Assembly: GCA_035546535.1 (NCBI GenBank)
Contig: DASZWQ010000040.1
Span: 1 to 64,000 of the forward strand
Direction: 5' to 3'
DNA: 64,000 nucleotides
Origin: Pirellulales bacterium
Lineage (GTDB): Bacteria; Planctomycetota; Planctomycetia; Pirellulales; JACPPG01
Below are positions 33,120-44,185 of the stretch, piece after piece (position 1 is the first letter of the stretch; each line of letters starts with the position of its first letter). Both the position numbers and the translations under genes were made by a program. The notes beneath the pieces are model-generated. The model saw only the letters and a list, made by a program, of their open reading frames with translations, did no database searches and had not been told where the DNA came from.

Positions 33120-36100
33120 TTACGCCGATGGCTCGCCGGCCGACAACTCCGGACGCTGCGGCAAACTTTTCGCAAGCATCGGCCAATAGCCGGCGCTCAC
33201 GCTCGTGAGGGCTATCAGGGCTCCGATCCAGGCGGGAGTTAGCCAGATGCTGGCCGCCAGCCCCGCCGCGATCCCCGCGATGACAAATCCCGGCGCCGTT
33301 GGCGCGGCAAGCCGCGAATAAGGCGCGCGAGCCGCGACGATCGCAGCGAGGACTAGAATTAGCGCGGCCAACCAGCGCCCTAGAATTGCCGACTTTCCAG
33401 CGGACGGGAATTGGACGGTGATCTGCGGTGCGTTGCCGGCGAAGGCAAAACGCGTTGCCATGCTATCAGCGGCCGCGGTGGGTGCCTCGAATCCAGGGGC
33501 GAACTCGCGCTCGACTGTGGTCAGAGGGGGCAAGTCTGAGCTTTCCTCGATCGTCGCCGAGCCCTGGGCCCCGGTGTCGTAAATGTGCCAAGTCGTTTCC
33601 GCGAAGTCGATCCCGTCCAAAAAGGGCGCCGTCAATACGACGCTGCCGCCACCTGTCGTGGCAGGCAATTCGCTCGCGAAGATAACCTCGACCGTGTGCC
33701 GCTGGTCGCTGGCGGGAAGCTTGATGGTGCAGGTGCGGTTCGAAGTGGCAGGAGTCCGCAGACGGCCAGCGACGCGCAGTTCGAGAATGTGCATTGCGTC
33801 GGGCCAGCGGAGATGACAAATCCGCTCGCCTGGGTCATCGAGGGTGAATCTTGCTACGCCGTGATTATTGCTCCCCGCGTTGTAGAACCACTGGATTTCG
33901 GCCATCGACTGTGCCGTTCCTGAGACCGGGTCTCCGACCGCTGGCCAGGCCGCGGCATCCGCCTCGACCACGCGAAACACCTGCGCTCCACCGGGCGGAG
34001 CGCTTCTTGCCAGATCCTCGGGCAGCCGATCTGCTTGCATTGCGCGAGTTTTCCAATGCAATCGCTCGGTTCCCCACTTCGTCGGCAGCATCACGAAGAC
34101 TTGATCATCCGCATCACCGGACAGCGTCGGGATAGCGAGCGGTCGATCTTTTTCCAACTCGAGCCGGCAGCGCAGCGTAAACTGGAGATCACCCGTCGCC
34201 GGCGTCTTTGGTCGAATCACGAGGCGACGAATGCTGTCGGCGCCGTTGACCACTTCGAGGGCGGCAGGAGGTGCAATTTCGAAGGGACCGGCCCAAGCCG
34301 CCGGCAAATCGATCGCGATGGAATCGACAATACCATCTTCGACGACCGCATGATAATCGAGCGCTCCGCGCGCGCCGGCGCTATCGCGGTCAAGCGTTGT
34401 CAACAACGTGGCCCGCGCGCGTGGGGTATTCGGCGAAATGCGAATCGTGGCGCTGTAATCATTCTGGCTGGCGCGCAGTACTGCGAACGTCGGCCCCGGC
34501 AATGGCGATTCGTCAGGTCGCAGGTGATTTGCTGCGAATAGCCCCTGCTGATCTGCCAGCGCGATTTGCACCGTTGGCTGGCGCTGGAGGGTGATCATGG
34601 TTTCCCACTGCGTTGCGGATTCGAGCTTGATCCGCGGCAGCGGCCACGACCCGTCGAGCGGCGCTGGCAGCCAGCCCTCGATCGAGAGTAGCTGGCGACC
34701 CGTCACCGGCCCCGAGAGAAAGACCGAGATCATACCCAATTCGTCACGTGTCCAGCGGCTGACGCGATCGATACCCTCCTGCACGAGCGAAACCCTCTCC
34801 ACTTCCAGGTCGGCAGGGGCGCGGACAAGGTGTTGCAGGGTATAGCCGGAAACGTTTGGCGGAACGTCGCCGCCGGATATCTCGGCGACGAAGCGCACAA
34901 GCGCCCGGCCCTGACCGACGCTCAGCGAGAGCCGCTGTTGGGCCAAGACCGAGGAGTTACGCGGCCGTGTGGAGAGCGTCCATGGTTCGTCGGGATCGAG
35001 TTGAATCACCGATTGCGGCGGTGTGGGAGCTCCGCCCCAATGCGCCAGGAATTCGCCGACATTCATGACGGACTTGGCTTCCGGCGGCGGTACGCTGAAT
35101 TCCAGGGCAGGCTCGACCGAGATGGCCAGCACCCGTTTGCCAACGTGCAACCCCTGCGGCTCGATGCGCGGTAGAGACAACTGACCGATGCCTGAACTGC
35201 CAACCAGCAGGAACGAAACGGGCACCGTCGCGTGATCCGTGACGGGGCGCGCTAACTCGACGCGCACGGTTTGCGGGTCGCCGGCGACTGGCTGCACACT
35301 GGCGACGGTCCCGGAGCGGTCGACAACCGGTAGGGCCCGCAGTCGCGGATCTACCGAAAGCCATAGTTCGGACAGAGGGGCCTTCAACCCTTTGAGATCG
35401 AGCCGCGCGTGCATGATGACCGAGGCCGGCTGCACTTGCAGCCATAGCCAGGTTTCGGCATCACCGGCGACGTTCGTGGTGCGCGGCTGGCGCGTGCGTG
35501 CCCAACGCACGGTCAAGCGGTCGGTCGCGCCGAGCTCCGCGACGAAGGTTCGGCCATCCTCCGAGAGTGCGGAGACTCCCAGGGCCGACGGAACGTCGAC
35601 CGAGGAAAGATTTGCGGGAAGTTGAACAATCACGGTCGCATGCGGCACAGGCGGTATTGCCATATCGAGCGCGCCGGCGGTCGCGTCGCCGCGCTGCATG
35701 CGCAGGGAAAGGTTCAGCTGGTACATGCCCGGCTCATCGAAACGGCAATAGAATCCGTCCTCATCGATGTCCCACTCCAATTCGATTTCGCGCCCCTCGC
35801 GCGAAGCCACTGGGCCAGGCCGTACGCCCAGCAGCGGCAGTCGAAATACAACGTCGCTGCCTAACGCAAGTACGTCGTACTGTACGCGAACGTCGGTGGC
35901 TATGTAGCCCTCATTGAGGCCGTCACGGGCGAGCGATAATTGGTATCTGGCCGCGCGAATCAGCCACCCCCCGCTCTTACCCGTCGCGCGGGCGACGAGG
36001 CGTTGCAATTCGTCGTAAAGGTGCTCCGGCACCTGGTACTTGCCGTCTGTTGGCTGCTCCTGATCATCGACCGGAATAAAGACACGATAAACATCGTCGG

Positions 36101-39100
36101 TACTATCCTCACGAGGCGCCGTCTTGGATTCCTGTTGCCCTGCGGCGCGAGATGGCAGCAGGCCAAGTCCGGCGAGAGTCACGATCGCCAGCAGCAGGGG
36201 CAGGGCGGTCGCCAACGGTCGGGTGCTGGCTTTACTCGGGCTCGAGCTGACCTCGCGCCGTGGTGGCGGCGCTAGCCATCGCCAGGCGATCGCCGCGGCA
36301 ATCCCCCACAAGCTGCCTGTGGCCAACGGTGCCCAACCTTCGGGAAAAAGCAGCGCGGCAGCCGCCGCGATGCTCAGCCAGGCCGCGAGAACGTTCCAGC
36401 GTCGCACGAAATGAAGGCAAATCGCCAGCGCCAAGACGCACGCCACGGCGCGGCCCGCGCTGCGGCTTGCTGGATAAATGATCTGCGCCACGGGCGGTGA
36501 ACTTCCCTCGGCGTGAATGATGTATGGAATTGCCGCGCCCAGATCACCGGCGAGTGGTTGGGTATCCTCGATAGCCCGAGTAGGTTCTTGTCCCTGTTGT
36601 GCCCAGATCGTGGCGCTCGGGTACTCTTCGTCCTCAATCGTTCGGGTGACGATTGTTGAAAGCAGCGGCCCGCTGTCGAGCATCCCTAGCTGATCAGGCT
36701 CGATCCAGCGCAGCTCGTCGCGATGGAGCGATGCGGCTTCGCGGCTGGTCAGTAAGACGGCGTCGGGCGAAAACAATAGGGCGACGTCGTTTTGCGCCAG
36801 CAGACTGCTGGCTGGCCTGCCGGCGAGATCCGCGGCCGATGGCACGAGTTGCGATCGCGGACCAATACCCTTTGCTGCCAGTGCTGCGGCATCGATCCGC
36901 AGTACAGCGCCCGATTGCTGCGACGATTCCGCCGCAGCGGCGAGCAAGCTCGCCCAAGTCGGGGCGACGAGCGCTTGTGCTTGCGATCTTGCCAACTCTT
37001 CGAAGCGCATGGCATAGGAAGCGGCCGCGTCATCGCCCGCGAGACGCGATCCGAGAGCGCTCCAGTTCTTGGAGGAAAAGGGCGCAAAACGCAGGGTCGT
37101 TTTGCTTCGGCCCAGCGGACCGAATAGTCGCTCACTCCAGGAGAGGCCGGTGACCGCCGGTTTGGCGCTCCCCGCGGCGACTTCTCCCAAGGCGAATCCC
37201 GTCGGAAGCCAGAGGACCCAATCACTGGAGACGACAGGCATATCGATCGTCGCCACGGGTGCCGTTAACGGCATGTTTTTCAGACCCGCCATTGCCGGTC
37301 CACGATATTCGACGCTGAGCGTGACGTGGTTGGCGTCGGAGGGTAAGTCGACGCGGACCTGCGCTCCACTGGCCGATTCCGACCGACCGTCCCGCCAGAA
37401 TAGCGTGATCTCGCAGCGCTCGGGAACGGTGACTGTGACGGAGCTCTGACCCGAGTTCTGCAAACGGAAGGTGCTCGTGTGCCAGGAATTGCCCGCCACG
37501 TCGTAGTGCGACTCGGTGCGTCGATGCCAAACGATGCCTGCGGTCTTGAGGCCGAGAGAGCCGTGCTGGCGGGTGACGACGATCTTGTCCGCAGGTTCCG
37601 CGCGGTTGTACTGAAACACGCCTCTCGTGCCGGGCATGCCGGGATCATCCGACACGGCCAGTGGCGTCAGGCCCGATGCTTCGACGGAAATGCTGACGTC
37701 GGCCGCGGCATCCACGGTGACTTGCGCCTGCTGCGTGACTGCATCTGGCAGATTGACGAGCCCCACCGCAATTTGATCGGCGAAGGGAGTCACACGTTCG
37801 CAATGGATTTCGAACCCGGCCGATTGCGGTCGCGCGAGAAGAATCTCCCAGGTTTCGCCCTCGTCAGACACCTCTGGGACGGCGCTTACCACCCGACGGG
37901 CCACGAGCGCCGCTTGACCCTCACCCGCGAGTTCGAATCGCGGCGGCTCCGGACGAGACGCGCTGAATCGCACCAGTACGCGCGACACGGGATCATCGTC
38001 GGGCTGGCAACGGAGCGAGCACGATTCGCTGACACCCGCCTCGTTCACTTGCGCGGTTATCGCGATCTTAGCGGCGAAGGCTGGACGCTCGTCGACGATC
38101 TTCGCGCTGAAGCGACTCGCCAGCGGATCGAAGCGGTACACGGGGTGCTTCGGAGCTTCCTGGAAGATGTTTTGCAGCGCTGTCAGGGGGACATCACCAG
38201 TGATACGAACCAGATTTTCGACCTCCGCCAGTGCGATAGCCCTTCCCGGAGCGGGCTGCAGCGATAACCACTGCTCGTCGATGTCGACATTGCGAAATCG
38301 CACGACCTCCAACTCGCCGGCCGGCCACGTTTCCCGGTTCGATGCGGCGCGATGTGCGCGGATCATGAGCTTGACGGGAGAGTCGGTCGGCAGCGGACGC
38401 GAAAAGCGAATCGTAAGCTCTGGCACCTCCTCTTCCGTATTGACGTGCCAACCATCGAGAGCGTCGCGGGGCTCGGCGTCCACCGCGTCGATCAGCCATG
38501 CGGAGCCAACGTCGGCCACGAGCGACAAACATCGCCCGCGCACGCCTTGGGCCATGGCCACGAGCTGCGCTTTGGCCAGATCATCATCAAGTTCCAGGAG
38601 CAGTCCTGTCGAAAGCCGCGTCCGAGGCTTCTCGCGCGCCAGGTCGAGTTCTACCGTGCTCGTTGCTGAGAACCACTGGATCTCGAACGACTCGCCGCGA
38701 TTAGGCTCAGGCAGCGACGAGTATTTCGTCTGCCGGCAGTCGCGCGTGGCAAGACGTTGCGCCACCAGCGGCTCATGCACCAGCACCGTGCAGGTCCCTT
38801 CCTGCCAGGTGCAGTCGGCGGCGCGTATCCGTGGCAGCGGCGCCGATTTCCCCGCCGGCAAAGGCCCGATCGCTGACAGTCGCAGTGGACGATCCGAACC
38901 AGACAGGGCGTCGGGCAGGTTCAATAAGATGCGCGACGATTCTTGACCATTGGCGGCCAGCGTCGTGAAGGGGACCTCGCTTTCTCCCAGTCGAGCCAAA
39001 ACCAGTTGCAAGCCAGGATCGAGAACCACTTCCAGCTGATGGACCGGTGTGGAGTGAACGTCTAGCTTCCAAACGGCCGCCAGATCCACTCCACGCGGCG

Positions 39101-39887
39101 ACAGGTTGTAGACCGCCGACTCGCGCATCAGGACCTTGGGTTGGCCGGGAACCGCGGCCGCCTGGAGCGGAAGCCGTAGCGATAGTTCACTCGCGCCGCC
39201 GAGCAGGAGCCGATAGACATGCCGGTCGGCTTGTTCTTCGACGAGCGATGCGACGCCCGAGCCCGCCGTCGGAACGACGCCGGGAGGCACGGTCAACAGG
39301 AGCGTGGAGAGTGCCGCACGCGGCAACTCGAAACGAAAGGCAAGTTGCCCATCATTGTCATGACGACCTCGCAGCGACCACGTTCCCGTCACGGTGCCGG
39401 CGCGGTCGGCGATGAGCGTCGCCTCACCGTCTTCATCCAAGCCGAGTTCGACAGGTTGCGGCGAGTCGCTCCAGCGGGTCTTGCCCAGCGCGAGGTTCAA
39501 CGGCGAAAGATTCACGGGCGCCGCGGACGAAACCGTCCGTTCAACTTCCCACGCGAACGTCCCTTGCAGGCGGTCGATGCCATCGAATTGTGCCGTGTAA
39601 TCGGCCTGCTCCAGGCAGGCGGGGGCCGGACGGTCGCCGCTTTCCTCCTGTGCGGCTTTGACCAGGCGCTCGAATTCCGGACCGTCGACAGGCACGTAGC
39701 GCGCGGTACCACGCGGCCAGTCTTGCACGCGCTCGGCCGGTGCATAAACCCGGCGAAACCGTAGCGTCCCCGCCGCCGCAGCGGGCGGCTGTTCCCGCGG
39801 TGAAGATTCGCCGGGCTGCGCGCCAATGGCGCTAGCAGCCGATAGCGACACCACGGCCCAGAGAATTGACGCTGGTCCGTGACGCAT
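33120..39887 (-). CDS. Giant envelope protein made of two fused copies of one architecture
   Basis: 2255 residues, family not recognised. ATG 39887 overlaps the upstream stop (TGATG) and starts a signal peptide (ILWAVVSLSAASAIGAQ). Two copies follow. Copy 1: N-module ~40-230 (VPVDGPEFERLV, FELPRAALSTLLLTVP), beta-rich body, C-module ~795-900 (STFRLQNSG, RVDLPSDANHVTLSVEY, WVLWLPTG), membrane helices ~1139-1212. A second signal-peptide-like stretch follows (~1224-1249, ATALPLLLAIVTLAGLGLL then SRAAG). Copy 2: N-module ~1266-1470 (VPEHLYDELQRLV), body, C-module ~1993-2105 (ARFTLDDPG, QRHTVEVIF, TTWHIYD), last helices ~2166-2233. No enzymatic motif seen. Presumably periplasmic with membrane anchors, acting with the paralogous gene upstream. 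Confidence 0.88.
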   Translation of the reverse strand: MRHGPASILWAVVSLSAASAIGAQPGESSPREQPPAAAAGTLRFRRVYAPAERVQDWPRGTARYVPVDGPEFERLVKAAQEESGDRPAPACLEQADYTAQFDGIDRLQGTFAWEVERTVSSAAPVNLSPLNLALGKTRWSDSPQPVELGLDEDGEATLIADRAGTVTGTWSLRGRHDNDGQLAFRFELPRAALSTLLLTVPPGVVPTAGSGVASLVEEQADRHVYRLLLGGASELSLRLPLQAAAVPGQPKVLMRESAVYNLSPRGVDLAAVWKLDVHSTPVHQLEVVLDPGLQLVLARLGESEVPFTTLAANGQESSRILLNLPDALSGSDRPLRLSAIGPLPAGKSAPLPRIRAADCTWQEGTCTVLVHEPLVAQRLATRDCRQTKYSSLPEPNRGESFEIQWFSATSTVELDLAREKPRTRLSTGLLLELDDDLAKAQLVAMAQGVRGRCLSLVADVGSAWLIDAVDAEPRDALDGWHVNTEEEVPELTIRFSRPLPTDSPVKLMIRAHRAASNRETWPAGELEVVRFRNVDIDEQWLSLQPAPGRAIALAEVENLVRITGDVPLTALQNIFQEAPKHPVYRFDPLASRFSAKIVDERPAFAAKIAITAQVNEAGVSESCSLRCQPDDDPVSRVLVRFSASRPEPPRFELAGEGQAALVARRVVSAVPEVSDEGETWEILLARPQSAGFEIHCERVTPFADQIAVGLVNLPDAVTQQAQVTVDAAADVSISVEASGLTPLAVSDDPGMPGTRGVFQYNRAEPADKIVVTRQHGSLGLKTAGIVWHRRTESHYDVAGNSWHTSTFRLQNSGQSSVTVTVPERCEITLFWRDGRSESASGAQVRVDLPSDANHVTLSVEYRGPAMAGLKNMPLTAPVATIDMPVVSSDWVLWLPTGFALGEVAAGSAKPAVTGLSWSERLFGPLGRSKTTLRFAPFSSKNWSALGSRLAGDDAAASYAMRFEELARSQAQALVAPTWASLLAAAAESSQQSGAVLRIDAAALAAKGIGPRSQLVPSAADLAGRPASSLLAQNDVALLFSPDAVLLTSREAASLHRDELRWIEPDQLGMLDSGPLLSTIVTRTIEDEEYPSATIWAQQGQEPTRAIEDTQPLAGDLGAAIPYIIHAEGSSPPVAQIIYPASRSAGRAVACVLALAICLHFVRRWNVLAAWLSIAAAAALLFPEGWAPLATGSLWGIAAAIAWRWLAPPPRREVSSSPSKASTRPLATALPLLLAIVTLAGLGLLPSRAAGQQESKTAPREDSTDDVYRVFIPVDDQEQPTDGKYQVPEHLYDELQRLVARATGKSGGWLIRAARYQLSLARDGLNEGYIATDVRVQYDVLALGSDVVFRLPLLGVRPGPVASREGREIELEWDIDEDGFYCRFDEPGMYQLNLSLRMQRGDATAGALDMAIPPVPHATVIVQLPANLSSVDVPSALGVSALSEDGRTFVAELGATDRLTVRWARTRQPRTTNVAGDAETWLWLQVQPASVIMHARLDLKGLKAPLSELWLSVDPRLRALPVVDRSGTVASVQPVAGDPQTVRVELARPVTDHATVPVSFLLVGSSGIGQLSLPRIEPQGLHVGKRVLAISVEPALEFSVPPPEAKSVMNVGEFLAHWGGAPTPPQSVIQLDPDEPWTLSTRPRNSSVLAQQRLSLSVGQGRALVRFVAEISGGDVPPNVSGYTLQHLVRAPADLEVERVSLVQEGIDRVSRWTRDELGMISVFLSGPVTGRQLLSIEGWLPAPLDGSWPLPRIKLESATQWETMITLQRQPTVQIALADQQGLFAANHLRPDESPLPGPTFAVLRASQNDYSATIRISPNTPRARATLLTTLDRDSAGARGALDYHAVVEDGIVDSIAIDLPAAWAGPFEIAPPAALEVVNGADSIRRLVIRPKTPATGDLQFTLRCRLELEKDRPLAIPTLSGDADDQVFVMLPTKWGTERLHWKTRAMQADRLPEDLARSAPPGGAQVFRVVEADAAAWPAVGDPVSGTAQSMAEIQWFYNAGSNNHGVARFTLDDPGERICHLRWPDAMHILELRVAGRLRTPATSNRTCTIKLPASDQRHTVEVIFASELPATTGGGSVVLTAPFLDGIDFAETTWHIYDTGAQGSATIEESSDLPPLTTVEREFAPGFEAPTAAADSMATRFAFAGNAPQITVQFPSAGKSAILGRWLAALILVLAAIVAARAPYSRLAAPTAPGFVIAGIAAGLAASIWLTPAWIGALIALTSVSAGYWPMLAKSLPQRPELSAGEPSA

Positions 39888-42800
39888 CACGATTCCCCTG
39901 ACGGAGCGGTCGTTTGAGGAACGCGCGGAATGGGCTCGCCGCTGCTCGACGATGCCTGCACGCGAAGATGCGTCCTCGTCGAGCCAGGCTCGTGTATGGA
40001 ACTGGGGCTGGTACGAATGACCAGGGGAGCCCGTCGCCGGGCGTGCAGATATCGCTCGAGGGCGGCCGCCAAAAGGACCAGACAGGCTCCGACCGCGGCA
40101 AACTGCGCCAGCACCAGTGCCAGATCGGGGTAGAGCATGGCCACGCCCATCAGCAGTACTCCGCCGACGAACAACAGGACAGGCTTTCGGAGGATCGAGA
40201 AATTCAAAAGCAACAGACCGATCAGGAGCACGCCTCCGGCGCCGCAGGCGATGAGGGCCGTCCGGCTCGCCACGCGAATGTCGAGGCTCGTAACGGGCCC
40301 AACCGCGGCAAGCACGTAGCGGTTCGTTTGCTCGGGAAGAGGGGGACCGGCGGTCGTATGGGTCCAGCTTTCCAGATCCTCTTGTTCCACGAGCGGGCGA
40401 CGCGTCCACAGTCCTCTGTCAAACTGCCACTGGAACGCGCCGCTCAAATCCGCGGGCCAGGCGATCAAATGCTCGTCGCGCGGCAGGACGATCTGCCAGT
40501 AGCTCTGTCGTACCCAGGGGCCTCCCTGCAGGCTCGGCGGCTGGAGCTGAAGCCTGCCCGTCTCAACGGAACGCGTGCCAAAGCGATAACTGACATCCAG
40601 CACGTGGTCGCCGTCCGTCGTGCCAAGGTCAATGTTCAACGAATCGCGCGTCGCAAGCTGCGGCCGGACTACGCTGCCGTCCAGGACCAATTGGGCCTCG
40701 GAGGCGATGGCGCCTGCGGGCAATTGCATCGTTACCTGAGGTCCGCCCCCGGCGAGTTCGAATACGGCGCGGTCCCAGCGCTCTCCTTCAGCCAGACGCG
40801 TCTGGATCCAAGCACGCTTCACGATGAGGGGCGCGACGGCAGGTGTCGTTTCAAGGGATACGACAAGATGTACTTCGGTATTCGGCAGAGGGCTTGTCAG
40901 CCGCAAGGCAACGGGCTGCTGCTTGTCGCGTGTCTGCGGCTCGACATTCCACCCATTCTCGCGTTGTTCGACCCTCATGTGTGCGGGCGCTATCACTGAC
41001 AATTCGTTCGCGCGAAGCTCCGTCACGGCCGGCATGACCAGCGGCACGTCGATGGGCAATTCCCGGCCGGCGGCGACAGGTTCGACGTGCAGCGGATAGC
41101 GCACGGCGACGTGACAATCGCCTTGTCGCTTCTCGGGCAGCAACAGTCGAAACCGAACTGTACGTTCGACGCTTGCTTCGCGATCGTCGCGCGTCGGAGT
41201 CACCGGCTGTCCGTCCAATTCCCACGCGATGCGATCCACCGTGGCTAGCCAGCTGGGCACGTCGAACAGCAGCTCTTCAAGCGGATCGTTGGTGATCGCG
41301 TAGTTGATCACTTCTTCGACCGCGAATTCCTTTTCGTCAATCGTGAGACGGCTGGTGACATCAGCTACCACCGATCGAGATTCGACTTGCAGATCGGCGG
41401 CGAAGCGCAGCTCGTCCGTTTGTCCACGAAAGGTCAACGTGGCATTTTCGCTATCCGGCGCCGCGGGCGGGATTTGGCCGCGCACCCGCGTCAGGCCGAC
41501 AAGGTCGCCTTCGCGAACCGTGAGCGAGACGTCCGCCGACGGAGTGACGCTGATCTGAGCCGGCGCGATCGCGTCGGCGCTTGCACGCGGCAATTCGAAG
41601 GCAACCCGGGTCGCGTCGGCAGAAAGGTCACGATGGCAGCGCAGGATGAGCTCGATTTCGCCAGTCGTCGGCTGTAGCAAGGGAATCCGCAGCGGCTTAT
41701 CGGCCTCGACCGCGACACGATCGACGTCGAATGAGCTGCGTGGCGTGATGTCGTCAAGATCCCAGCCCGACAACGCGACTTCCATAGCAAAAGCCTTGGC
41801 GCCGCGCACCTGGTAAAGCAAACGCGCTTCGAGCCGCACCTGGCGACTATCCACATCCACGTTGTACCGTGGTTCGACCGACAGATGAGTCTTCAGCGGT
41901 GTCAGTTGGCCGGTCATCGAGAAGGGGACGCCAAAGTATTCGAACGACGCCAGGACGCCGTCACGGTCGAGTTCCGTGGGCACTTCGTCGACCTGTCGGG
42001 CGTGGCGAAGCTCCTTCCAATTCGTTTGCCAACCGTCGGCAACCCGCACCACGACGAAGCCCGACTGCCGTGCGGCCCCCACTAATTCGACGCCCGTTAA
42101 TTGGAAATCTCGCTCGCCGGATTTCTCATCGAGCGGCTGATCGAGAGAAAAGCGTAGGACGGCGGGAGTCGACGCCTTGTCTCGCAGGCGGACCTCGAAC
42201 AACTGCGTGCCATCCTCGCCGGCAGGAACCGCTTCGATTTGATAACTATTTTGACCGGCTCCGGTCAGTTGGACGCCGGTAGGAATCCGCAGGCGGAACG
42301 TGTCGAGCTTGCTGCCAAAGGTGCGCACCGTTAACTGAACGTCCGTGTGAATTCCTGCCGGATCTATGCGCGTGGTCAGGATGCCGGACGCGTCAAGCGG
42401 AGTAACGGCCTCGGCGGCCGCGTTCTCCTTGTGCCATGCGATGGCGAAATCGCGCTCCATGCCCAGCACTTTGAACTCGGTGCCGTTCTTCGTCGCCGTA
42501 GTCCTGTCGAGGATCCCGCCGCCGTCGCGCACCGTGGCAGCCGCATTGGCCTCAGGCACGATAAGAGTCAACTCGGATACGGCCGCTCGCGGTAATCCCA
42601 GCTTCAATTCCGTCCGTTCGGCCAATTTCATCAGCGGTACGGCTATTTCGAGCGTCAGGCGATGCGGTTCGTCTCCATCGCCACGCAGCCAAAGAACGTG
42701 CTCCTTGGCGGCCTGATCGAATTCGACGCGCGACTCGCCGGGGCCCTGGTAGCGCGGCTTGGCACGCAGGACCGCTTCGCCCAGACGCAGGGGAATACGT

Positions 42801-43189
42801 GCCCAGCCGGGTTGGTTGACGCCGAGAGTCAGCTCGATCGACAGATCGGCGTGCCGGTCACCGGCCTGGCCGCGTGCGACAAGCCGGTCGAGCTGATAGC
42901 GGGGCGGTTGCTGGCCGAGCCCTAACTGGGCCCGCTGGTTCATGAAGCGTTCGAAGTCCTCCAGGGTGAAGCCGAGGACCGCTTGGAGAAGCCCACCATC
43001 TTTATTTCGCAGAAAGAGGACGGGGGGCTGAGCTTCCTTGACGCCCCCTTCGGCCGCTTGGGGGGCAGTTTCGCTGGCGGCCGCCCGGCGCGGCGTATCC
43101 TGCGGTTGCGCGGCCGAGGATTGCTGAGCAAGCCCCGCGGCCAGCAAGCAGCCCCCGAGCGCAATGGTTCGGATCCAAGGGATTAGCAA
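39887..43189 (-). CDS. Large envelope protein, single-copy paralogue of the following fused gene
   Basis: 1100 residues, family not recognised. Starts at TTG 43189 with AGGA 12-15 bases upstream; no ATG is available before residue 80 and the sequence from TTG reads as a signal peptide (MLIPWIRTIALGGCLLAAGLA). N-module at ~55-215 (TLEDFERFMNQRA, LGLPRAAVSELTLIVPEA), a beta-rich body with many short VxL strands, C-module at ~810-930 (VFELAGGGPQVTMQLP, HVLDVSYRF, YWQIVLP), then three or four helices at ~976-1050 (ALIACGAGGVLLIGLLLL, PVLLFVGGVLLMGVAM) and a Ser/Pro-rich tail, likely cytoplasmic. Each module has counterparts in both halves of the next gene. The TGATG overlap implies translational coupling and equimolar synthesis. 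Confidence 0.88.
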   Translation of the reverse strand: MLIPWIRTIALGGCLLAAGLAQQSSAAQPQDTPRRAAASETAPQAAEGGVKEAQPPVLFLRNKDGGLLQAVLGFTLEDFERFMNQRAQLGLGQQPPRYQLDRLVARGQAGDRHADLSIELTLGVNQPGWARIPLRLGEAVLRAKPRYQGPGESRVEFDQAAKEHVLWLRGDGDEPHRLTLEIAVPLMKLAERTELKLGLPRAAVSELTLIVPEANAAATVRDGGGILDRTTATKNGTEFKVLGMERDFAIAWHKENAAAEAVTPLDASGILTTRIDPAGIHTDVQLTVRTFGSKLDTFRLRIPTGVQLTGAGQNSYQIEAVPAGEDGTQLFEVRLRDKASTPAVLRFSLDQPLDEKSGERDFQLTGVELVGAARQSGFVVVRVADGWQTNWKELRHARQVDEVPTELDRDGVLASFEYFGVPFSMTGQLTPLKTHLSVEPRYNVDVDSRQVRLEARLLYQVRGAKAFAMEVALSGWDLDDITPRSSFDVDRVAVEADKPLRIPLLQPTTGEIELILRCHRDLSADATRVAFELPRASADAIAPAQISVTPSADVSLTVREGDLVGLTRVRGQIPPAAPDSENATLTFRGQTDELRFAADLQVESRSVVADVTSRLTIDEKEFAVEEVINYAITNDPLEELLFDVPSWLATVDRIAWELDGQPVTPTRDDREASVERTVRFRLLLPEKRQGDCHVAVRYPLHVEPVAAGRELPIDVPLVMPAVTELRANELSVIAPAHMRVEQRENGWNVEPQTRDKQQPVALRLTSPLPNTEVHLVVSLETTPAVAPLIVKRAWIQTRLAEGERWDRAVFELAGGGPQVTMQLPAGAIASEAQLVLDGSVVRPQLATRDSLNIDLGTTDGDHVLDVSYRFGTRSVETGRLQLQPPSLQGGPWVRQSYWQIVLPRDEHLIAWPADLSGAFQWQFDRGLWTRRPLVEQEDLESWTHTTAGPPLPEQTNRYVLAAVGPVTSLDIRVASRTALIACGAGGVLLIGLLLLNFSILRKPVLLFVGGVLLMGVAMLYPDLALVLAQFAAVGACLVLLAAALERYLHARRRAPLVIRTSPSSIHEPGSTRTHLRVQASSSSGEPIPRVPQTTAPSGES

Positions 43190-43390: not shown

Positions 43391-44185
43391 CTATTTCCCT
43401 GGCCCTGCCGTGGCTAGCACCTGGCAAAGCTCGCGATGCAATTGCCGGGTTGCGGCCGCAACGAAGCTGGCCTCCAGGACGTTGAAATCGCCCCCGCCGG
43501 GCCCAGTCAGGATTCCCCCGGCCTCGCGGACGATGAGCGCTCCGGCGGCTACGTCCCACGGTTTGGTGTCGTAGGACCAGAACGCGTCGAAACGCCCAGC
43601 CGCGACAGAGCACAGATTCAAAGCCGACGAGCCCGTGCGCCGGGTGGCCCGGCACCTGGGAAGAACCTCCAGGAATCGTTGGACTTCGGTCGCATTCCTG
43701 TTCGCCCGCGGTGGAAAGCTCGTAGCGACAACGGCTTGCGAGAGATCCGTCGTGCGGCTGGCTTTGAGCGGCTCGCGATTCAAAAAGGCTCCCTCGCCCG
43801 CCGCCGCCAGGTAACAAGCGTCGTAAACCGGAGCGTATACGACCCCCACGACGAGCTTGCCATTCTGCTCAAGACCGATCGAAACGGCATATTCGGGAAT
43901 GCCGTGTACGAAATTGGTCGTGCCGTCCAGGGGATCAACGATCCATCGCAAGCCGTCGGGGCCTGGCGGGATCGATTCATTCTCTTCACCGAGAAACCCG
44001 TGGCCGGGAAACTCGGCCAGGATTGTGTCGCGGATCGTGCGCTGCGAGGCGACATCGGCCTCGGTGACGAGGTCGGCTGGTTTCTTTTCTCGGGCTTCGA
44101 CTCGACCGGCGTGTTCCCGTAACACCTGCCCGCCAGCGCGGGCGGCGCGCTCGCAGATCTTTCCGAACTCAGCAATTAAGGCCAT
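43391..44185 (-). CDS. Inositol monophosphatase family protein
   Basis: Mg2+-dependent phosphatase of 264 residues, acting on myo-inositol 1-phosphate or a related sugar phosphate in the cytoplasm. Metal-site motifs are complete: GEENES (Glu, about 66-71), WIVDPLDGTTNF (about 81-92) and KPWDVAAGALIVREAGG (about 208-224). Length and order are normal for IMPase; a CysQ-type 3'-nucleotidase function is less likely but not excluded. It lies upstream of the giant envelope genes on the same strand with a 201-base gap, so cotranscription is uncertain. Confidence 0.92.
   Translation of the reverse strand: MALIAEFGKICERAARAGGQVLREHAGRVEAREKKPADLVTEADVASQRTIRDTILAEFPGHGFLGEENESIPPGPDGLRWIVDPLDGTTNFVHGIPEYAVSIGLEQNGKLVVGVVYAPVYDACYLAAAGEGAFLNREPLKASRTTDLSQAVVATSFPPRANRNATEVQRFLEVLPRCRATRRTGSSALNLCSVAAGRFDAFWSYDTKPWDVAAGALIVREAGGILTGPGGGDFNVLEASFVAAATRQLHRELCQVLATAGPGK

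Follow-up and report, generated by a model that had tools for sequence, protein, structure and literature searches.

A conserved planctomycete gene pair encoding three paralogous envelope modules of predicted tandem beta-domains

The window, which here means the whole stretch of DNA that was analysed (64,000 nucleotides from a Pirellulales bacterium, contig DASZWQ010000040.1), carries two adjacent reverse-strand genes, A and B. Gene A encodes a single large ectodomain followed by membrane helices, and gene B encodes two such modules, B1 and B2, fused in one polypeptide (Table 1). An earlier note on this DNA gave coordinates for both genes, which are exact, and described a TGATG coupling between them, which is seen at 39889-39885 with the A nucleotide common to both genes. 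The B protein begins with a signal peptide, followed by B1, a membrane cluster, a second signal- or anchor-like helix, B2, and the C-terminal helices. The signal peptides and the membrane helices after each module are present as had been described, and the layout of both proteins is broadly kept in relatives, for A in a set of 41 homologues.

Table 1. Genes, modules and domains of the A-B locus, with positions in the window.
Feature	Position	Strand	Description	Basis or match
Gene A	39887..43189	-	1100 aa, TTG start; signal peptide, then ~5 beta-domains in tandem, a membrane part of three helices and a short tail	ORF
Gene B	33120..39887	-	2255 aa, ATG start; modules B1 and B2 fused	ORF
TGATG	39885..39889	-	A stop and B start overlap by one base	
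A beta-domain 1 (res 95-258)	42416..42907	-	predicted M1-aminopeptidase N-domain fold	E 4e-6 vs domain 3
A beta-domain 2 (res 259-420)	41930..42415	-		E 5e-7 vs domain 3
A beta-domain 3 (res 421-582)	41444..41929	-		E 4e-11 vs domain 4
A beta-domain 4 (res 583-782)	40844..41443	-	together with domain 5, similar in predicted fold to luminal Ost1/ribophorin I	
A beta-domain 5 (res 783-975)	40265..40843	-	C-module of the earlier note (DG turn, YWQIVLP)	
A three transmembrane helices (res 976-1053)	40031..40264	-		homologue topology, AlphaFold model
Module B1, tandem beta-domains (res 20-922)	37122..39830	-		profile match to A, AlphaFold model
B1 alpha/beta insert (res 925-1115)	36543..37115	-	W978, D999, W1095 conserved	
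B middle transmembrane cluster (res 1143-1203)	36279..36461	-		homologue topology, AlphaFold model
B second signal/anchor-like helix before B2 (res ~1225-1243)	36159..36215	-		homologue topology
Module B2 ectodomain (res 1246-2160)	33408..36152	-		profile matches to B1 and A
B C-terminal transmembrane helices (res 2167-2235)	33183..33389	-		homologue topology
Inositol-monophosphatase-family gene	43391..44185	-	upstream of A	PF00459, E 2e-74

The relationship of the three modules was addressed with query-anchored profiles built from 41 A, 34 B1, and 34 B2 sequences, taken from the orthologous region of 40 genomes, all within the order Pirellulales, with the transmembrane parts left out. Similarity was significant in every profile-profile pair: A matched B1 at E 4e-35 over 835 columns, A matched B2 at E 3e-32 over 809 columns, and B1 matched B2 at E 5e-36 over 844 columns, while the reversed-profile controls for the same three pairs gave E values of 0.06-0.4. 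The earlier note had proposed that one architecture is present three times, and these matches are stronger than what it claimed. For its N-module, FELPRAALSTLLLTVP of B1 aligns with LGLPRAAVSELTLIVPEA of A, and for its C-module, WVLWLPTG (B1) aligns with YWQIVLP (A) and TTWHIYD (B2). The N-module motif, described as common to all three, is recognisable in A and B1 but degenerate in B2 (LDMAIPPVPHATVIVQLP), where the equivalence comes through the profile alone. Because the matches extend over more than 800 columns against poor reversed controls, with the motifs in register, A, B1, and B2 are, as judged from profile comparison, full-length paralogues, and the triplication spans the whole ectodomain. 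A second level of repetition is found within A. When its ectodomain was divided into five pieces and these were compared pairwise, domains 4 and 5 matched at E 1e-7, and the pairs 3 and 4, 2 and 3, and 1 and 3 matched at the values in Table 1; at the level of sequence, the ectodomain is thus a row of about five homologous tandem beta-domains.

As to phylogenetic spread, gene A proved to be conserved order-, class-, and phylum-wide. It was found in 132 of the 147 sampled Pirellulales genomes, mostly as a single copy. At class level 94 of 119 sampled genomes had it, one family carrying several copies, and at phylum level 59 of 199. Both genes were recognised in 67 loci, and in 65 of these B follows A in the same orientation; of the 65 pairs, 41 have an overlap of 4 or 1 bases between the stop of A and the start of B, and 58 are no more than 30 bp apart. 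A search of named genome contigs with a single protein returned no match, and an alignment of 21 diverse rows held no stretch conserved enough to search with. With an alignment of closer relatives, 22 loci were found in named contigs, 21 of them labelled planctomycetes. One contig with both A and B (L074, JABMRB010001437.1) belongs to a MAG labelled Candidatus Nealsonbacteria, and it is most likely a mis-binned planctomycete contig.

At two loci (L108 and L111) the three modules are three separate genes, which in L108 are consecutive and have A, B1, and B2 as their best profiles, in that order. A and B1 are fused into a single reading frame at L089 (6083-12007 of JAISJZ010000126.1, apparently a contig from a MAG of termite-gut or similar type). 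Some distant genomes have single genes with two modules, and at L127 four modules are distributed over three genes. A single two-module gene with an unusually long hydrophobic middle region (~200 residues) occurs at L128, L132, L136, and L140, and in a tree of 74 modules those of these four loci make up separate groups. That tree distinguishes two versions of the system, version I comprising Pirellulales and close families, and version II comprising other classes and the second copy in one family. Within version I, A, B1, and B2 are strongly separated (bootstrap 0.995-1.0); within version II, A and B1 are strongly separated and B2 is monophyletic except for L117 and L134. Across the two versions the three modules do not separate well at this divergence, so the tree fits a single triplication as well as a repeated one. 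The second and third genes of L108 and L111 are placed inside the B1 and B2 groups, which is what secondary splitting would produce. One genome, of one family of the class, has the complete A-B system twice, in diverged versions (L099 and L100).

The neighbourhood of the pair differs between the class of the window and more distant planctomycetes. In most Planctomycetia loci an inositol-monophosphatase-family gene precedes A (a same-strand neighbour in 26 loci), and in the window a RimI-like acetyltransferase gene follows B; 18 loci have a conserved downstream neighbour. For the inositol-monophosphatase-family and RimI-like genes a functional link was considered and set aside, as the arrangement looks like lineage synteny instead. 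For the transport structure suggested in the earlier note nothing was found in support, no ATPase, channel, or outer-membrane partner being conserved beside the pair. Outside the class, nine loci (L109, L115, L117, L122, L128, L132, L134, L136, and L140) have a same-strand gene for a vWF_A/VWA/YfbK_C protein immediately before the module, with a zf-HC2 or anti-sigma-like N-terminus recognised in four of the nine proteins (L109, L115, L117, and L134). An ECF sigma factor gene precedes the vWA gene in all seven loci where the contig reaches that far (L109, L115, L117, L128, L134, L136, and L140), and L123 has a divergently oriented sigma and zf-HC2-VIT-VWA pair. Outside Planctomycetia, co-expression of A and B with these two genes, for an ECF sigma factor and a membrane-bound anti-sigma/vWA protein of YfbK type, is probable. 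No such neighbours adjoin the pair in the window or in any Planctomycetia locus examined; YfbK-type proteins are found in the window's genome and in many relatives, but elsewhere on the genome.

This gene order raises the question of whether A and B are mainly a surface receptor, that is, the part of an ECF sigma/anti-sigma pathway that senses conditions outside the cytoplasm, in which case any structural role would be secondary and the Planctomycetia partners would have been relocated in the genome. The immediate, same-strand succession of sigma factor, vWA/anti-sigma-type protein, A, and B in seven loci of several families is what such a receptor would lead one to expect. However, the succession is missing from every Planctomycetia locus examined, several relatives that have A are without a YfbK-type protein, and the linked gene could merely be the regulator of the operon. 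We consider a primarily signalling role unlikely, though it is the likeliest of the alternatives considered.

Structure prediction gave beta-rich models with the expected membrane helices for both A (mean pLDDT 77.5, pTM 0.38) and B1 (mean pLDDT 77.8, pTM 0.35); since these pTM values are low, relative domain placement and the overall rod shape are unreliable in both. The two models have a common architecture and identical best structural matches, so that agreement of fold is seen for A and B1, and the fold of B2 rests on its profile match. Residues 604-977 of the A model match the luminal part of Ost1/ribophorin I with Z 13.8-15.1 over ~300 residues (rmsd 14-15 Å), and the B1 model, mostly through residues 69-400, matches it with Z 14.3-15.8 over ~300 residues (rmsd 7-8 Å in most rows), the high rmsd being as expected if the hinge between the two domains differs. 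The other recurrent match is to the N-terminal beta-domain of M1 aminopeptidases, which A domain 1 resembles with Z 12-13 at 3.0-3.6 Å over ~155 residues and B1 with Z up to 14.8; overall, single A and B1 domains match it at 2.9-3.7 Å over ~152-166 residues with Z 12-15. A fold of the ribophorin-I/M1-N-terminal type is thus predicted by computation for A and B1. B1 differs from A in an alpha/beta insert of ~190 residues placed ahead of its last two strands. Of 33 relatives, 10 have only a short insert or none at all. The three conserved residues of the insert (Table 1) are kept where it is present, and it had no match in Pfam or PDB searches. From its sequence pattern an STN-like domain had been suspected, but the STN profile gave no match at the window locus.

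Searches for a sequence family were negative throughout. Neither A nor the halves of B had a match in Pfam, NCBIfam, or PDB sequences, 21 A homologues had none in Pfam, and the Ribophorin_I profile (PF04597) found nothing over cut-off in 99 genomes of the class and nothing at the A/B locus. The statement in the earlier note that no known family is recognised consequently stands for sequence, but the fold can be recognised. The resemblance to ribophorin I is one of fold only, because the Ribophorin_I profile does not detect A or B (and an HExxH motif is likewise absent from both), and the likeness to ribophorin I and the M1 N-terminal beta-domain seen in the models is best described as one of shape. 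In the open-access full-text literature we found no described system matching A/B, although a description elsewhere is possible.

Ribophorin I, or Ost1 (PF04597), is a subunit of the eukaryotic oligosaccharyltransferase, which acts in protein glycosylation. By analogy, the array could hold or chaperone exported polypeptides or glycoproteins near a translocon or glycosyltransferase. Ost1/ribophorin I is the top structural match of both modelled modules, involves two consecutive domains, and in A falls on the membrane-proximal ones. On the other hand, neither the Ribophorin_I profile nor a Pfam search of the A homologues supports the analogy, three transmembrane helices are found where Ost1 has one, M1 peptidases have the fold too, and the conserved neighbours of the pair include no glycosyltransferase or Sec gene. 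Handling of exported polypeptides in this manner is possible, and less supported than a scaffold or sensor role; we regard it as rather improbable. OST1 has been reported from eukaryotes and from TACK and Asgard archaea (PMC11417166). A bolder version, which we see as a long shot, would make A/B an ancient bacterial membrane complex of ~15 ribophorin-I-like domains, in three paralogous modules, that shares ancestry with OST1 and handles exported polypeptides or organises the periplasm. If this were true, it would provide a bacterial source for a domain arrangement whose only reports to date concern the translocon-glycosylation machinery of archaea and eukaryotes. A protease-related or protease-trapping device, either an inactive relative of M1 aminopeptidases or something like alpha-2-macroglobulin, is very improbable: it draws on the M1 N-domain match and on long Foldseek matches to alpha-2-macroglobulins and related proteins, but A and B have no HExxH, no peptidase or macroglobulin Pfam family matched A, B, or the 21 A homologues, and the long matches have TM-scores of 0.05-0.15 (0.05-0.09 for macroglobulins). 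These macroglobulin matches, together with integrin matches, were judged to reflect a generic tandem-beta arrangement, with TM-scores up to 0.15.

The reading that we favour, with a probability of about 0.5, is that A and B form one co-inherited envelope hetero-complex, a non-catalytic, inner-membrane-anchored periplasmic scaffold or ligand-binding sensor. Paralogy, domain repeats, topology, conserved gene order, splits, and a fusion are established by computation, and the proposal of three paralogous envelope proteins in one operon has held up in the profiles, the topology, the gene pair, the split and fused versions, and the two structure models. Each of A, B1, and B2 would be exported by way of a signal or anchor sequence, would project ~900 residues in about five tandem beta-domains into the periplasm, and would be anchored to the inner membrane through a short bundle of transmembrane helices. 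Working together is the usual case for paralogues whose genes fuse and split repeatedly while their order stays constant. From the near-constant A-B pairing, the overlapping stops and starts, and the fused and split versions, we infer that the three modules most likely assemble into a single hetero-complex of ~15 beta-domains. Since the array is long and repetitive, lacks a catalytic signature, and in other classes lies in an apparent ECF sigma/anti-sigma-vWA operon, its most likely role in the planctomycete periplasm is that of an elongated scaffold or a sensor that binds ligands. Outside Planctomycetia, where the gene order is observed, the anti-sigma/vWA (YfbK-type) protein and the ECF sigma factor might then relay envelope conditions to transcription. 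Against the favoured complex count the absence of the sigma/vWA linkage in the window's class, the lack of YfbK proteins in some relatives that have A, and the low pTM of the models, and a fold common to binding and structural domains does not by itself show the function of A and B.

Nearly all Pirellulales genomes tested, and genomes of other classes of the phylum, retain this coding sequence of about 10 kb, with no Pfam or NCBIfam family to describe it. A and B point to a large unstudied part of the planctomycete envelope and are a target for learning how such envelopes are built. The gene pair, its natural splits and fusion, and the sigma linkage make its role testable in tractable species such as Planctopirus limnophila. 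The predicted link to the ribophorin I fold bears on the origin of that subunit's domains, so far as a likeness of shape.

Compared with known systems, the A/B family is unnamed by sequence and recognisable by fold, and its assembly and function would be as proposed above. In nine distant planctomycete loci A and B lie immediately downstream of a vWA gene of the kind known from ECF sigma/zf-HC2 anti-sigma/vWA (YfbK_C, PF12034) pairs, but they themselves contain neither vWA nor anti-sigma domains. M1 family metallopeptidases include leukotriene A4 hydrolase, ERAP1, and aminopeptidase N. Their N-terminal beta-domain has the fold predicted for single A and B1 domains, whereas A and B are without the catalytic domain or HExxH and instead form tandem arrays with membrane bundles. 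Ost1 has two such domains in one protein and a single membrane-spanning helix, whereas A and B have about five domains per module in three modules, with three transmembrane helices after the A ectodomain and after B1. In addition, A and B are without a PF04597 match, and no oligosaccharyltransferase context was found, with no STT3 among the conserved neighbours of the pair. What the A and B1 models have in common with ribophorin I/Ost1 is a series of tandem luminal or periplasmic beta-domains, predicted to be of that fold, beside a membrane anchor.
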